A DNA stretch of 64,000 nt from Maricaulis sp. (GTDB taxonomy: Bacteria; Pseudomonadota; Alphaproteobacteria; Caulobacterales; Maricaulaceae): NCBI RefSeq assembly GCF_017642925.1, contig NZ_JAEPOL010000006.1, forward strand, positions 62,001 through 126,000, in the 5' to 3' direction. The notes below the pieces were generated by a model. That model saw only the letters and a list, made by a program, of their open reading frames with translations, had not been told where the DNA came from and ran no database searches. A program made the translations under genes and the position numbers. Shown here piece by piece: positions 25,251 through 31,461 of the stretch; the first letter of the stretch is position 1; each line of letters begins with the position of its first letter.

Positions 25251-26306
25251 CTACTTGCCAAACAGGCCGGTCTGACCGGTATTGCCGCTTTGCGGCGGCG
25301 CCAGTCCCAGATGCTCCCATGCCCGCGCAGCGGCCAGTCGGCCACGCGGTGTGCGCTGGATGAAGCCCTGCTGGATCAGGAAGGGTTCGACCACGTCCTC
25401 CAGCGCGTCGCGCGCCTCGGCGAGTGCCGCAGCAAGCGTCTCGACCCCGACGGGGCCGCCGCCGAAGCTCTCGGTGAGCGCCTTGAGATAGCGGCGGTCC
25501 AGACTGTCCAGGCCCAGCGCATCGACTTCCAGACGCCCCAGGGCGCGATCGGCGACAGGTGCGGATATCTCGGTTGCCCCTTCCGCCTCCGCGAAGTCCC
25601 GGACCCGGCGCAGCAGACGGCCGGCCACGCGCGGCGTGCCGCGGGCGCGGCGCGCGATCTCGCGAGCCCCGTCCGGCGTCGCATCGATACCGAACTTGCT
25701 GGCCGCCCGCGAGACGATAAAGCCGAGTTCGGCCTCGTCATAGAATTCCAGCCGGACAGGCACACCGAACCGGTCGCGCAGCGGCGTCGCCAGCAGGCCA
25801 GCCCGCGTGGTTGCGCCGACCAGTGTGAAGGGCGGCAACTCGATCCGGACCGTGCGGGCGGAAGGCCCCTCGCCGATCACGAGATCGAGGCAGAAGTCCT
25901 CCATCGCCGGATAGAGGATTTCCTCGACCGCGGGGGCAAGCCGGTGGATCTCGTCGATAAAGAGAACGTCGCGCGGCTCCAGATTGGTCAGGATGGCGGC
26001 CAGGTCGCCCGCCTTTGCAATCACCGGCCCCGAGGTCGCCCGGAAGCCGACACCCATTTCCCGCGCCACGATCTGGGCCAGCGTCGTCTTGCCGAGGCCG
26101 GGCGGTCCGGACAGCAGGACGTGGTCCAGCGCCTCCTCGCGGCGGCGGGCCGCCTCGACGAAGACCTTGAGATTGGCGATGGCCGCCTTCTGACCGACGA
26201 AGTCGGAAAAGCTGAGCGGGCGCAGCGCACGGTCCCGCCCGTCGCCGGGTTGTTGTTCCCGGCCGATCAGTCGTTCGTCGTCGTCGCTGTCGGGCATGTC
26301 GCTCAT
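25251..26306 (-). CDS. ruvB: Holliday junction branch-migration ATPase RuvB
   Basis: The 351-residue AAA+ motor pumps DNA through the RuvA-Holliday junction complex. Walker A is [14 protein letters not shown] (about residues 65-78), Walker [10 protein letters not shown], sensor [10 protein letters not shown] and the RuvA-contacting beta hairpin lies between. The C-terminal winged-helix domain ends '[23 protein letters not shown]', the DNA-contact part. Last gene of ruvCAB; a 46-nt gap follows ruvA. Confidence 0.96.
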
Positions 26307-26352
26307 CAGACCGGGTCTAGACCGATCCGCGCGCCGGAGAAAGCCGCCCGCA

Positions 26353-27000
26353 TCACGGCGCCAGCTCCTTCAGCGACAGGCGTATGACGTCGTTGAGCGG
26401 CGTATCCTCACCCTTGTCCCGCAACACGGTGGCGACCGCCTGGCGTGCGAGGCTTTCGTGATAGCCCAGATTGGTCAGGGCCGAGACCGCGTCTTCCCGA
26501 GATGCGCCGCCCGCCGACCTCTCAGGCTTGCGAGCCACCGTCTCGCTGGAGCCTGTGTCCGCAGAATGCGGCGCCAGCCCGATCGAGAAGCTGCGCCCCT
26601 GGGGCGGTGCCTTGTCCTTCAGCTCGGTCGCGATACGCGTCGCCAGCTTCGGTCCGACACCCTTGGCGCGGGCAAAGGTCGACTTGTCCCCCAGCGCGGC
26701 GGCATTGGCGATCTCGGAGACCGGAACGGTGTCGAGTATCGCGAAGGCCGCCTTGGCGCCGACGCCCTGGATGTTCTGCAGGTGAACGAACCAGGCCCGC
26801 TCGATATCCTCCAGGAAGCCGAACAGGCGAAAGGCGTCCTCGCGGACATGGGTTTCAATGTGCAGCGTGACAGGCTGGCCCGGTTCGAGCCGGGCGAGCG
26901 TGCGCGAGGCGCAGCCCACAAGATAACCCACGCCGTTGACGTCGATCACCGCTTCGTCGGCGCCGACGGCCTCGACGATACCCTTGAGCATGCCGATCAT
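26353..27000 (-). CDS. ruvA: Holliday junction DNA-binding protein RuvA
   Basis: The 215-residue protein starts [28 protein letters not shown], the OB-fold domain I. Two helix-hairpin-helix motifs follow ([16 protein letters not shown] and [14 protein letters not shown]), then a linker and domain III ([24 protein letters not shown]) that contacts RuvB. Its start overlaps the ruvC stop by 4 nt (ATGA), a sign of translational coupling. The linker is rather long and Arg/Ser/Gly-rich. Confidence 0.96.
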
Positions 27001-27497
27001 GCTGCGCTCCCGATGCTGGCGGCCTTGCGATGATGAGCGTGACAGATAGCAACCGCCAGCGCGTCGGCTGCATCGGCCTTCGCCTTTGTCCCCGGCAGGA
27101 GCACGCCGACCATCGCCGCCACCTGATCCTTGCCGGCCCCGCCGGTGCCGACGACGCTCTTCTTCACGAGCCGCGCTGCGTACTCGCTGACCGGCAAGCC
27201 GGCACGGGCGGGCGCAAGCAGCGCCGCCGCCCGGGCATGCCCCAGCTTCAGCGCAGATGCGGCGTTTGCCGCCATGAAGGCTTCCTCGATCGCGGATTCA
27301 TCCGGCCGGTACTCGGCCACAAGGTCCGTCACGGCCTGGAAGATGTGATCCAGCCGCACGGAGAGCGCCGCGTCGGTCGGCGGCGTGACGACGCCATGCG
27401 CCACTGCGCTCAGCCGCGTGCCGTCTGCACGGACGATACCCCACCCCATCCGGCGCAATCCGGGATCGATACCGAGAATAGTGACCGCTGCAGACAT
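26997..27497 (-). CDS. ruvC: Holliday junction resolvase RuvC
   Basis: This 166-residue RNase H-fold endonuclease cuts Holliday junctions. Start MSAAVTILGIDPGLRRMGWG has GGGGGCGGA just upstream, so the 213-residue track start is rejected. Catalytic acids visible are D11 (GIDPG), E71 (SAIEEAF) and the C-terminal pair in KADAADALAVAICH. Length and motifs match the family. It leads the ruvCAB operon and is divergent from the Tat-repeat protein genes. Confidence 0.95.
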   Translation of the reverse strand: MSAAVTILGIDPGLRRMGWGIVRADGTRLSAVAHGVVTPPTDAALSVRLDHIFQAVTDLVAEYRPDESAIEEAFMAANAASALKLGHARAAALLAPARAGLPVSEYAARLVKKSVVGTGGAGKDQVAAMVGVLLPGTKAKADAADALAVAICHAHHRKAASIGSAA

Positions 27498-27905
27498 TCC
27501 GCCCCCTGTTTGCACCAGACTTAGCACCATCCGGCAAACCGGAACAAGCCGTGAACGCAAGCCGCCCGACTTGCAAATGAGACGCACAAATGGGCGCAAG
27601 TGAAAATCAATAGCAATTACTTTGCGACACCCTCGCAATAAAGCTCGTAATATATTGTTTTATAATACAAATTAATTCACGTATTTCGTTTGACCGGATC
27701 AGCGCGGCGGAGGAAGATTGCCGTAACGCATTGCGCGTGCAGCGCAGTCTGCATGGCGATTGCGCCGATGATGTGCAGACGGGACAAACGTCCAGCCTTT
27801 ATTTGGCGGACGTTGGGTTTCGACGGCACGCATCAGATCCGCGCAGGCGGGCAGAGGGACAGGGCGGCCCCTGGGGAGGGTCCGCAGCAAGGCAGGGGAG
27901 CCGAC
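27498..27905. promoter_or_regulatory. AT-rich divergent intergenic region between ruvC and the repeat-protein operon
   Basis: The 408-bp gap has no convincing gene. At 27601-27690 it becomes strikingly AT-rich and includes a perfect TATAAT (27661-27666, plus strand) with no clear -35, and a short stem TTGCGA/TCGCAA (27622-27638). The -10-like box lies 240 nt before the first repeat-protein ATG, implying a long leader if used. The start at 27906 itself has GGGGAG 6-7 nt upstream. Confidence 0.45.
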
Positions 27906-28358
27906 ATGGCCAAAAAAGGAAAGCTGAGCCGCCGTTCATTCCTGGCGCGCGTTGCAGGTGCTGCCGCGATGACAGGCGCCGCCTCGATCGTGACGGGTGG
28001 CGCACAGGCCCAGAACTATACGGGACGGACCGACAGCGACACGGGAAGCTATGCCGACCGGGCCGGCTATGGCCGTACCGGCCTGACCGACAGCGATACC
28101 GGTCCGAATGCCGACCGCGCAGGCTATGGCCGCGGCGGCTCGCGCTCCACGACGGGCATCACCGACAGCGATACCGGCACCTATGCCGACCCGGCCGGCA
28201 ATGGCCGCGGCTCGTCCGGCAACAGCTGGACCGATGCCGACAGCGGTTCCTGCGCCGACCCCGGCGGACGCGGACGCGGGCCGGTGCGTAACGGCACGAC
28301 CGACAGCGACACCGGCTCCTGCGCCGATGCCGTGGGCCGTGGCCGTCCCGGCTACTGA
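27906..28358 (+). CDS. Tat-exported Asp/Gly/Arg tandem-repeat protein A
   Basis: The 150-residue product starts MAKKGKLSRRSFLARVAGAAA, a twin-arginine signal (SRRSFL) likely cleaved after AQA. The mature part is five copies of a 17-residue motif, consensus TDSD[TS]Gx[YNC]ADxxGxGRG, joined by 2-8 residue Gly/Ser-rich linkers. Two repeats carry Cys in place of Tyr (SGSCADP, TGSCADA). The Asp spacing D-x-D-x-G-x-x-x-D recalls calcium-binding loops (EF-hand or thrombospondin-3 type); this is an inference. The longer track start is rejected. No family with a known role recognised; it pairs with the next gene. Confidence 0.82.
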   Translation: MAKKGKLSRRSFLARVAGAAAMTGAASIVTGGAQAQNYTGRTDSDTGSYADRAGYGRTGLTDSDTGPNADRAGYGRGGSRSTTGITDSDTGTYADPAGNGRGSSGNSWTDADSGSCADPGGRGRGPVRNGTTDSDTGSCADAVGRGRPGY

Positions 28359-28375
28359 CCGGGAGGCGGCAGACC

Positions 28376-28933
28376 ATGGCCAAGCGCGGTAAACTCAGCC
28401 GGCGCTCCTTTCTGACCCGGGTTGCCGGCGCGGCGGTTTCCGTCGGCGCCGTCGGAACGGTGACAGGCTGCGCCACGACCGGCTATTCCGACAGCGATCC
28501 CTATGATCCCGTTGGCGGCGGACGCGGCTATCGCGGCGGCGGTATCACCGACAGCGACACCGGCCGCTATGCAGACCCACCCGGCCAGGGACGGGGCGGT
28601 GGCATCACCGACCGGGATACCGGCCGCTATGCCGATCCGGTCGGACGGGGCCGCGGCTCCGGGATCACCGACAGCGATACGGGCAGCTATGCCGACCCGC
28701 CGGGCGCCGGACGCGGCAGCACGGGGATCACTGACAATGACAGCGGCCCCTATGCCGACCCGGCCGGCCGCGGGCGCGGCGGTTACGGTTCCGGCATCAC
28801 GGACAGCGATTCAGGACGCTATGCCGACCCGCCCGGCAATGGCCGGGGCGGTAGCGGCGGCTATAATTCCGGTTGCACCGACAGCGATACGGGCAGCTAT
28901 GCCGACCCGGTCGGCAATGGCCGCTATTGCTGA
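28376..28933 (+). CDS. Tat-exported Asp/Gly/Arg tandem-repeat lipoprotein B
   Basis: This 185-residue paralogue of the preceding protein begins 17 nt after its stop, with GGGAGG upstream. Its signal MAKRGKLSRRSFLTRVAGAAV is nearly the same but ends in TVTGCATTG, a lipobox, so it is probably a Tat-exported lipoprotein. One degenerate and six full repeats follow (for example TDSDTGRYADPPGQGRGGGI), and the chain ends NGRYC with a terminal Cys. Every unit keeps the D-x-D-x-G-x-x-x-D ladder and GxGR. A and B appear to have arisen by duplication with separate expansion of the repeats. Confidence 0.82.
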   Translation: MAKRGKLSRRSFLTRVAGAAVSVGAVGTVTGCATTGYSDSDPYDPVGGGRGYRGGGITDSDTGRYADPPGQGRGGGITDRDTGRYADPVGRGRGSGITDSDTGSYADPPGAGRGSTGITDNDSGPYADPAGRGRGGYGSGITDSDSGRYADPPGNGRGGSGGYNSGCTDSDTGSYADPVGNGRYC

Positions 28934-28994
28934 TCCCTGACGTTTCGACTGCCTCTCCTCCACGCTTTCGCTACACACGCGGAGTCCCATTGCC

Positions 28995-30185
28995 ATGTCC
29001 CGTCCTGCCTGGCTGAACGACCCGATCGCCAGCCTCATTGCTCCGTTCGACGCGGAAACCTTTTTTCGTGACTATCATGAGCGCAAGGCGCTGATCGTCC
29101 ACCGGGACGATCCTGCGCGCTATCAGGGTCTGCTCACGATCGACCGCATCGACGCGATTGTATCCTCGCGCGATCTGCGCGCCGGATCACTGGACATGGC
29201 GCGCTCGGAACCGCCGGTGCGGCCGAACGACTTCACCTTCGAGACCGGCTATATCGATCCTGGCGGCGTGGCCGACCAGTATCGTCGCGGCGCGACCATC
29301 ATCCTGCCACAGCTGCACCTCGCCGATCCGGTGCTCGGCGAGTTCTGCCGGGCGATGGAGGCGCTGCTCTCCTGCCATGTGCAGACCAATATCTATCTCA
29401 CGCCGCCGCACAATCAGGGCTTCCGGACCCATTACGACGATCACGACGTCTTCGTGCTGCAGGTTTCCGGCGAGAAATACTGGCGCCTCTATAACACCCC
29501 CGTCGAAAATCCCTATCGCGGCGAAGGCTTCCGTCCGGACGACCACAAGGTCGGGGAACCGGTGGAGGAGTTCGTCCTGAAGGCCGGCGAATGCGCCTAT
29601 GTCCCGCGCGGTCTGATGCACGACGCCTCGACCCACGGCGACGAACCCTCCCTGCACATCACACTCGGACTGATCGTGAAGACCTGGGCCGATCTGATGC
29701 TGGAAGCGGTGTCCGAAGTGGCGTTGCGCCATCCGGCTTTCCGCCGCTCCCTTCCGGTCGGCTATGCCCGTCCGGACTTCGACCGCACTGATGCCCAGGC
29801 CCATTTCGCCAGCCTGGCTGAAACCCTGGCCGGCGAAGCCAGGCTGGACGAGGCGATGGACCTGTTCGCCGACAGCTTCATCCGTTCCCGCATGCCGGAT
29901 GTCGGCGGCACGATTTCCGGCTTTGCCGCCCCGTCCGAACCGGGACGCAACTTCCGGCTCCGCCCCTTCGTGCCCTGGCGCCTGGCTGGCGATGGCGAGG
30001 ATGTGGTGATCGTGACCGCGGGCGGAGAGGTTCGCTTCCCGGCGGCGGCCGAGCCGGGCCTGCACACACTGCTCGATGGCGGAACGGTCTCGCTGGAGAC
30101 ATTTGACGGTCTGGACGCGGATGCCGCCCGCGACACGATGGGCAAATTGCACGCCTTCGGCCTGATCGTCCCGGACGAGGCCTGA
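28995..30185 (+). CDS. JmjC/cupin-4 Fe(II)/2-oxoglutarate-dependent oxygenase (ROXA/MINA-like)
   Basis: The 396-residue enzyme belongs to the ribosomal-oxygenase-like JmjC group (Cupin_4). The double-stranded beta-helix core shows the iron facial triad H146-x-D148 in FRTHYDDHDVFVLQVSGEKYWRLY and H209 in AYVPRGLMHDAST, with SLHITLGL following. The C-terminal part is a winged-helix-like dimer/tail region as in YcfD/ROXA. Known relatives hydroxylate arginine or histidine of ribosomal proteins. Here the gene lies 61 nt after two repeat proteins rich in Asp and Arg, so these are plausible substrates; that is inference. ATG 28995 has GGAG upstream. Confidence 0.85.
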   Translation: MSRPAWLNDPIASLIAPFDAETFFRDYHERKALIVHRDDPARYQGLLTIDRIDAIVSSRDLRAGSLDMARSEPPVRPNDFTFETGYIDPGGVADQYRRGATIILPQLHLADPVLGEFCRAMEALLSCHVQTNIYLTPPHNQGFRTHYDDHDVFVLQVSGEKYWRLYNTPVENPYRGEGFRPDDHKVGEPVEEFVLKAGECAYVPRGLMHDASTHGDEPSLHITLGLIVKTWADLMLEAVSEVALRHPAFRRSLPVGYARPDFDRTDAQAHFASLAETLAGEARLDEAMDLFADSFIRSRMPDVGGTISGFAAPSEPGRNFRLRPFVPWRLAGDGEDVVIVTAGGEVRFPAAAEPGLHTLLDGGTVSLETFDGLDADAARDTMGKLHAFGLIVPDEA

Positions 30186-30312
30186 TACCTCAGGTCATAA
30201 TTCAGTACCGGAGTTCGCCTTGCAGGGGATACAGCTCTAACTCTACATGCGGCCCCTGCGCACGGCCCGCGACTGTCGGGACGTGCGATTCCTGTGGCGA
30301 ACCGGCGAGCGC

Positions 30313-31461
30313 ATGCGTCTGAGACTGACCCTCATCCTGATCGGCTGCCTGGCCGCGTTTACCCTGTTATGGTCGATGTGGCCCTCGCCTATCAGTCCGA
30401 CCTACTGGGACGAACCGGTTGCGCCGGCGATGACCGGCGCTCTGGAGCCCGATGGCGCACTGGCCGATGCCGTCGCCATCAATGTCGGCCTGCCGGGAAG
30501 CGGCGAAGGCATCGCCGTTTCCGATAGCGGCACGATCTATTTCGGCACCGCTGACGGACGCGTCATGCGTCTTTCCCCCCACGAGGGCATTGACGAACCG
30601 GTCATCGAAGAAGTCGCGCGGGTCTGCGAGACGCTGATCCTCGGCCTCGACTGGATCGCTCCGAACGTTCTGGGGGTGGCGGCCATATCGGGCCTTTATG
30701 CGCTTGATGTGGAGACCGGGCATTATACGCTTGTCAGCTCCGGGGCACCGGCGCACCCGTTCGGCTATGTGAACGATCTCGCCGCAGCGCCGGACGGCCG
30801 GATCTTCTTTACCGACTCCTCCACCCGGTGGGGCCATGGCAGCAATCGGGACGGCTATCTCCACGACATGATGGAAAACCGCCCCAGCGGTGCGCTCTAT
30901 GTCTGGGATCCGGCCACGCACCAGACCCGACTGGTCCGCAGCCGGCTGCATTACCCCAACGGAATCGAACTGGCCGCCGACGGTCGCTCGGTTCTCGTCG
31001 CCGAGACATTCCGCTACCGCATCGTTCGGATCTGGATCGACGGGCCGGACGCGGGCAGCAAGGATATCTTCATCGACAATCTGCCAGGCCTGCCGGACGG
31101 GTTGGCGACGGACAGCCACGGCCGTCTGCTCGTCACCATGCCGTCACAGCGCGTACCGCTTCTCGGCTTCCTGCATCGTCATCCGCGCGTCACGCAATTC
31201 CTGATGAAAGTGCCGGAATGGCTGCGCCCCGGCGCCGGCCCCGCACGCGCCTTCATTCTCGCGCTCGACCCGGAAACCGGAGAGGCGCTGGACAGCTGGC
31301 ACGATCCCGAGGGGCGCCTGGGCTATCTGTCCAACACGGTCGAGGCGCCGGACGGGGATTTCTGGATCGGCACGACAGATCGTGGCCACCTGGTCCGGTT
31401 CTCTCCGGACCGGCCGGACACCGCCGGCGATACCGGCGCACCGGTATCGCTCGACGACTGA
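30313..31461 (+). CDS. Membrane-anchored SMP-30/strictosidine-synthase-like beta-propeller (APMAP-like)
   Basis: The 382-residue product starts MRLRLTLILIGCLAAFTLLW, an uncleaved anchor or signal. Six propeller blades follow: GIAVSDSGTIYFGTADGRVMRL, YVNDLAAAPDGRIFFTDSSTRWG, LHYPNGIELAADGRSVLVAETFRYRI and LPDGLATDSHGRLLVTM. These match the SMP-30/gluconolactonase/strictosidine synthase clan, close to APMAP and paraoxonase-like lactonases that bind calcium at the hub. The start at 30313 is favoured over 30247 because it begins the hydrophobic segment. It follows the JmjC gene by 127 nt on the same strand; a functional link is possible but unproven. Confidence 0.8.
   Translation: MRLRLTLILIGCLAAFTLLWSMWPSPISPTYWDEPVAPAMTGALEPDGALADAVAINVGLPGSGEGIAVSDSGTIYFGTADGRVMRLSPHEGIDEPVIEEVARVCETLILGLDWIAPNVLGVAAISGLYALDVETGHYTLVSSGAPAHPFGYVNDLAAAPDGRIFFTDSSTRWGHGSNRDGYLHDMMENRPSGALYVWDPATHQTRLVRSRLHYPNGIELAADGRSVLVAETFRYRIVRIWIDGPDAGSKDIFIDNLPGLPDGLATDSHGRLLVTMPSQRVPLLGFLHRHPRVTQFLMKVPEWLRPGAGPARAFILALDPETGEALDSWHDPEGRLGYLSNTVEAPDGDFWIGTTDRGHLVRFSPDRPDTAGDTGAPVSLDD

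Follow-up and report, generated by a model that had tools for sequence, protein, structure and literature searches.

A repeat protein with a twin-arginine translocation (Tat) signal and an Fe(II)/2-oxoglutarate oxygenase of the JmjC type are encoded by a conserved two-gene module, which is described here from a window of 64,000 nucleotides of Maricaulis sp. DNA and from its relatives. We think it rather likely that this is a dedicated module in which the repeat protein is a multi-site substrate of the oxygenase, is modified before Tat export and binds metal in the envelope. A prior description of the gene pair was not found in the searched open literature, which misses most subscription papers.

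The locus and its genes

All three genes of the locus lie on the forward strand. Repeat protein A (27906..28358) has 150 amino acids, a Tat signal, an AQA signal-peptidase-I-type site after A35 and five long repeat units. Its gene is separated by 17 nucleotides from that of repeat protein B (28376..28933; 185 amino acids), which has a Tat signal, the lipobox VTG-C32 (28469-28471), six long units, of which the last is flanked by Cys, and one short unit, SDSDPYDPVGGGRG. The oxygenase gene (28995..30185; 396 amino acids) follows after 61 nucleotides and encodes a JmjC_2 (PF08007) protein with the fold of NO66, MINA53 and YcfD. The earlier note had described two adjacent Tat-signal proteins with five and six full units, followed by an oxygenase with an intact HxD...H triad; both observations were confirmed, with the addition of the short unit in protein B, a PF08007 E-value of 2.6e-28 and a triad (H146, D148 and H209) that is invariant in 49 orthologues.

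The module is divergent from ruvC-ruvA-ruvB (25251-27638), and the ruv-ybgC-tol cluster adjoins it in most relatives of the family and order, a conserved chromosomal position. We rejected the ruv and tol genes as members of the module, as what they share with it is location. On the other side lies a gene for an SMP-30/strictosidine-synthase-like protein with an N-terminal membrane segment (30247..31461, forward strand), which comes next after the oxygenase in about 20 of 79 loci and is absent at the others. It may be a lineage-restricted member of the operon outside the conserved core; both this gene and a transketolase gene are lineage-bound and were rejected as core members. A larger gene cluster was likewise rejected, since only the repeat gene and the oxygenase gene are kept across clades.

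The repeat and oxygenase genes are gained and lost together

The earlier note had named genes lying apart in most relatives as an outcome that would refute its substrate idea; the genomes show the opposite. Among 137 Maricaulaceae genomes, 43 have both genes, 93 have neither and none has the repeat gene alone, and in all 43 repeat-bearing genomes the orthologous oxygenase gene is directly downstream. The one oxygenase-only genome has a contig that begins inside the gene. Joint presence or absence in 136/137 genomes corresponds to a Fisher p of 6e-35, uncorrected for kinship. As two genera (g6 and g15) each include some species with both genes and others with neither, repeat gene and oxygenase are gained and lost as a pair.

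The pair also occurs in other families of the order, where the repeat gene usually abuts the oxygenase gene and the misses are contig ends, and a scan of 85,000 species revealed it in Brevundimonas, Hyphomonadaceae-type, Sphingomonadales, some rhodobacterial, gammaproteobacterial and myxococcal (Myxococcota) genomes. A strict adjacency script was passed by 144 of 162 loci, with a median gap of 42 nucleotides; this set holds some loci twice and a few spurious picks (L241, L248), and contig ends or effects of start calling account for several of the 18 misses. Seven distant orthologues have no adjacent repeat gene (L197, L204, L240, L242, L243, L248 and L249); six of their genomes carry a repeat protein elsewhere (one weakly, E 9e-4), and in the remaining one none was detected. 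Genomes that bear the pair (L115-L124) can also have repeat genes distant from the oxygenase, and the enzyme may therefore have more than one substrate. Some of these extra repeat proteins have other C-terminal tails (L115, L117 and L121), and that of L122 consists of nine near-identical units.

Beside plasmid-borne relatives with 34-36% identity (Streptomyces clavuligerus, Rhizobium etli), an annotated repeat gene was not found. The 36%-identical JmjC gene of the R. etli IE4803 plasmid (L271 3980-5155) stands in a run with radical SAM/SPASM and acetyltransferase genes and small ORFs. This run resembles a cluster of the type that makes ribosomally synthesized and post-translationally modified peptides (RiPPs) and seems unrelated to the module.

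The oxygenase is a NO66/MINA53-like enzyme with an altered pocket

The oxygenase scored 98.5 bits against PF08007, for which the cut-off is 22, and its AlphaFold2 (AF2) model has a pLDDT of 94.6. The best solved matches in Foldseek were NO66 (E 9e-30; TM about 0.74), MINA53 and then YcfD. The enzyme, a relative of human hydroxylases of the ribosome, is nearer to NO66 and MINA53 than to YcfD. The triad and the 2-oxoglutarate lysine K161 are invariant among the aligned orthologues. The repeat-associated enzymes together form a clade (74 rows) apart from the JmjC_2 paralogues, with an SH-aLRT of 99 in a quick tree of moderate weight, given its long paralogue branches, and the paralogues have no repeat gene beside them.

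The module enzyme resembles NO66 (RIOX1), MINA53 (RIOX2) and YcfD in its JmjC_2 domain, fold and triad, and in the Lys and Tyr of its pocket. NO66 holds its substrate His by Tyr328 and Ser421 (PMC9994133). Of this pair, the Tyr is kept in the oxygenase as Y134, whereas the Ser of NO66 and MINA53 is replaced by Gly (Gly225) in 127/127 sequences with a residue at that position; the paralogues mostly have Ser. On this ground the substrate residue is probably not His; the repeats, too, have few His residues or none.

One further reading is that this is an ordinary ribosomal oxygenase with the repeat genes as mere passengers, to which the fold it shares with NO66, MINA53 and YcfD, and its being the sole PF08007 gene of the genome, would lend themselves. 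We regard this as highly improbable, given the joint presence and absence described above, adjacency across Alphaproteobacteria, Gammaproteobacteria and Myxococcota, the separation from the paralogues and the purifying selection on the exported repeats. The linkage of their genes gives strong support to the proposed modification of the repeats by the oxygenase.

The repeat units are old and under selection

The unit in the window has 15-16 residues and reads [TS]DxD[ST]GxxADxxGxGR. The consensus proposed earlier, TDSD[TS]Gx[YNC]ADxxGxGRG, captured a real unit but was written too tightly, as TDRD, TDND and TDAD also occur and the last units end in GRYC or GRPGY. In the collected loci, 172 repeat proteins contain 819 long units and 258 units of the short form TDSDPxDxxGxGR, with 2 to 17 units per protein. 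Searches of the Pfam and NCBIfam families with the repeat proteins returned nothing beyond sub-threshold Tat-signal models, and AF2 gave no confident fold for unmodified protein B (pLDDT 43).

Comparison of units within each of the two proteins gave dS values of 0.95 and 0.83 and a dN/dS of about 0.2, with zero amino-acid changes between units at the compared D/G columns. Between species, dN/dS was 0.06-0.20 for all three genes and 0.13-0.15 for protein A against its relatives. As the silent sites have diverged while the D/G columns are unchanged, the units are not a product of chance; they are old, and selection acts on their protein sequence.

Aspartate is the residue common to all repeat versions

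The atom that ROX enzymes hydroxylate is the beta carbon (C-3) of the target residue, and to our knowledge the enzymes characterised act on His or Arg, not on Asp. Two residues of the Maricaulis units, Asp and Arg, are candidate targets. The earlier note took the fixed spacing of these two residues to mark the repeats as multi-site substrates; the linkage data support the idea of a multi-site substrate, for which hydroxylation would be the expected chemistry, and the part concerning Asp holds universally, while Arg is absent from some gammaproteobacterial and rhodobacterial versions and is thus not a universal feature. The Pseudohongiella-type unit, [DG]TDS[SAT]DQ[AS]GGE, has Glu in the place of Arg. 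Neither L184 nor L200 has Arg in its units, L247 has none at all, and the mature part of the Octadecabacter-type repeat protein is likewise free of it. Asp is present in every version and makes up 18-23% of the Arg-less ones, and the oxygenases paired with these retain intact catalytic residues. As Arg has been lost in pairs whose enzymes are intact, the one plausible target that every version shares is Asp, and Arg as a universal target was rejected.

The same pairing could nevertheless serve to hydroxylate the Arg of GxGR, much as YcfD acts on Arg81 of L16. Arg occupies the last position in 94% of the long and 90% of the short units, although the search pattern left it unfixed; YcfD, a structural relative, is an Arg C-3 hydroxylase (PMC9994133); and the change from Ser to Gly in the pocket could admit a larger side chain. 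Against this stand the Arg-less pairs with kept active sites, the closer relation of the enzyme to NO66 and MINA53 than to YcfD, and the report that Arg analogues are neither substrates nor inhibitors of NO66 and MINA53 (PMC9994133). Judged from these sequences, Asp is a roughly even prospect as the target and Arg an unlikely one, with the rest falling to other chemistry.

Tat-type signals fit a proposed modification before export

The Tat signals of A and B are near-identical, MAK[KR]GKLSRRSFL[AT]RVAGAA, and both contain SRRSFL. Of 111 unique adjacent repeat proteins, with signals that span the classes, 90 have a strict RRxF[LMV] motif and 12 have KR, and for several of the remaining nine the script picked the wrong RR. 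A lipobox is present in 35 of 44 oxygenase-proximal copies in Maricaulaceae, including protein B, and in 5 of 67 elsewhere. Protein B thus looks like a Tat lipoprotein, and A and B would mature differently, as B has the lipobox and A the AQA site. The MNIO-RiPP literature notes that Sec-routed precursors need a way to avoid premature export (PMC12452194). As a Tat substrate is folded or finished in the cytoplasm before it crosses the membrane, modification could come first, and the Tat-type signals found throughout fit this order.

A signal-bearing leader with tandem, near-identical cores and a single oxidative enzyme is also the pattern of a RiPP, and a JmjC hydroxylase, BipG, acts in biphenomycin biosynthesis (PMC12707348). 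The repeat proteins might on this basis be multi-core RiPP precursors from which cleavage after export releases small modified peptides, such as signals, antimicrobials or small metallophores. We consider this improbable: the pair has no conserved companion gene for a protease, a transporter or immunity, the lipobox in many of the proteins fits retention of the whole chain, and the number of units varies from 2 to 17.

Fur-like boxes precede the operon in several lineages

Iron-uptake genes of Alphaproteobacteria are established to be under Fur-box control (PMC3751524, PMC7376174). With a Fur-type box defined as the 7-1-7 palindrome TGMKAATNATTMKCA and counted at a score of at least 11, a box was present 5' of the operon in 26/27 Maricaulis/Hyphobacterium loci versus about 5% of other ORF upstreams. 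It was in Maricaulis that the motif first came to notice, so independent testing comes from the other groups alone. Among f3/f4 loci the count was 26/32, mostly 31-53 nucleotides before the start, versus a background of 5.5%, and among gammaproteobacterial loci it was 4/5 versus 21%, the latter background comprising only 29 upstreams. Fur-type control as a universal feature was rejected, as the box is nearly missing from Oceanicaulis-type genera (1/16) and Sphingomonadales (2/18), in which no shared alternative motif was seen.

The window has two weak sites on the forward strand, TGAAAATCAATAGCA (27601..27615; two mismatches), 305 nucleotides 5' of protein A, for which relatives have strong boxes at the orthologous place, and TGCAAATGAGACGCA (27572..27586; three mismatches), which is weak alone and at chance level across the window. 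Genome-wide, the motif occurs at 6-8 places per genome at up to one mismatch, and its reversed pattern at none; in one genome (G027), three of the eight places are at this operon. The others include sites beside genes that we named from sequence by eye: a TonB receptor with a DUF6607-like lipoprotein, a ferric-binding-type ABC protein, a PiuC-like hydroxylase, and a Fur-family regulator with rubrerythrin. The Fur-like boxes of several lineages suggest that the module has to do with iron, a role that the earlier note lacked.

Two of these other places have arrangements of their own. In Maricaulis-family genomes, a strong box lies between the divergent genes for the DUF6607-like lipoprotein and the TonB receptor (L295 ~3045; L299 ~2968; L275), which suggests an iron role for that pair as well, and a single box is common to the PiuC-like hydroxylase gene and a divergent gene for an acidic, lipoprotein-like product (L272; L301).

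DxDxG...D resembles acidic calcium loops. The repeats could accordingly have a structural role that does not involve iron, for example as calcium-bridged envelope repeats, with the Fur-like sites reflecting other regulation in some lineages only; the lack of boxes in two large lineages and of a confident fold without metal would agree with this. The boxes in both Alpha- and Gammaproteobacteria argue for iron instead, as does a gene for a PepSY_TM membrane protein 3' of the oxygenase in several gammaproteobacterial copies (L184 5161-6342; L200 2848-4035; L207 5347-6459), and we hold the calcium-type role to be unlikely. The most specific form of the iron reading, in which the repeats are ribosomally made beta-hydroxyaspartate iron binders displayed in the envelope after Tat export and induced by iron shortage, is offered tentatively, as a possibility that is less likely than not.

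A model for the module

We propose that one operon makes both proteins, probably when iron is short; the box enrichment would place this response in the Maricaulis/Hyphobacterium relatives, Hyphomonadaceae-like and Brevundimonas-type genomes and Gammaproteobacteria. The ROX-type JmjC enzyme would act in the cytoplasm and oxidise one residue per unit, most likely at the beta carbon of one Asp in the TDxD...D motif. The Tat route would then export the finished protein, so that no export would precede modification, and the protein would stay in the envelope as a lipoprotein (B type) or in soluble form (A type), where arrays of Asp or hydroxy-Asp may bind a metal, probably ferric iron and possibly calcium. 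Of these proposals, Asp as the target is held most firmly, metal binding less so and the iron role least.

Relation to known systems

NO66, MINA53 and YcfD have ribosomal substrates, whereas the module enzyme is tied genetically to exported repeat proteins with little or no His. Bufferins and other MNIO-modified exported RiPPs (PMC12452194) resemble the module in having a short exported precursor gene directly before the gene of an iron-dependent oxidative enzyme, and the metal-binding envelope role of bufferins is akin to that suggested here. The module differs from bufferins in having a JmjC_2 rather than an MNIO enzyme, a Tat rather than a Sec signal, Asp repeats rather than a Cys core and regulation of an iron rather than a copper type, and no partner protein was found. 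It shares with RiPP systems the linkage of a precursor gene to a modifying-enzyme gene; no third gene that could be a dedicated protease or transporter is conserved across clades. BipG of biphenomycin biosynthesis is, as the module enzyme would be, a JmjC hydroxylase of a ribosomal peptide; unlike the latter, it has Orn in a small core as its target and belongs to a large cluster that includes rSAM, arginase and protease genes and no repeat envelope protein (PMC12707348). In the DAG-RiPPs, which are RiPP-lipoprotein hybrids, a modified ribosomal chain is also a lipoprotein, but the enzyme is an MNIO and the abstract mentions neither Tat export nor tandem repeats (PMC12636315).

On the features compared, then, the module would work like a bufferin-type system for exported modified peptides, yet lies outside both the bufferins and the ribosomal His hydroxylases. 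FIH is a JmjC beta-hydroxylase that modifies ankyrin repeats at several sites and accepts Asn, Asp and His. Its selectivity is broad (PMC9994133), and it differs from the module enzyme in acting promiscuously on folded ankyrin repeats in the eukaryotic cytoplasm rather than being dedicated and operon-linked.

The module is present in many marine and freshwater bacteria, and its two-gene size makes for easy reconstitution. For an orphan bacterial branch of the ROX/JmjC hydroxylases, it supplies an obvious and easily tested candidate substrate. If the modification is borne out, the ROX/JmjC class would extend from ribosomes to exported proteins, and if the product binds iron, it would be a gene-encoded, Tat-exported answer to hydroxyaspartate siderophores and a counterpart of the copper-binding bufferins.
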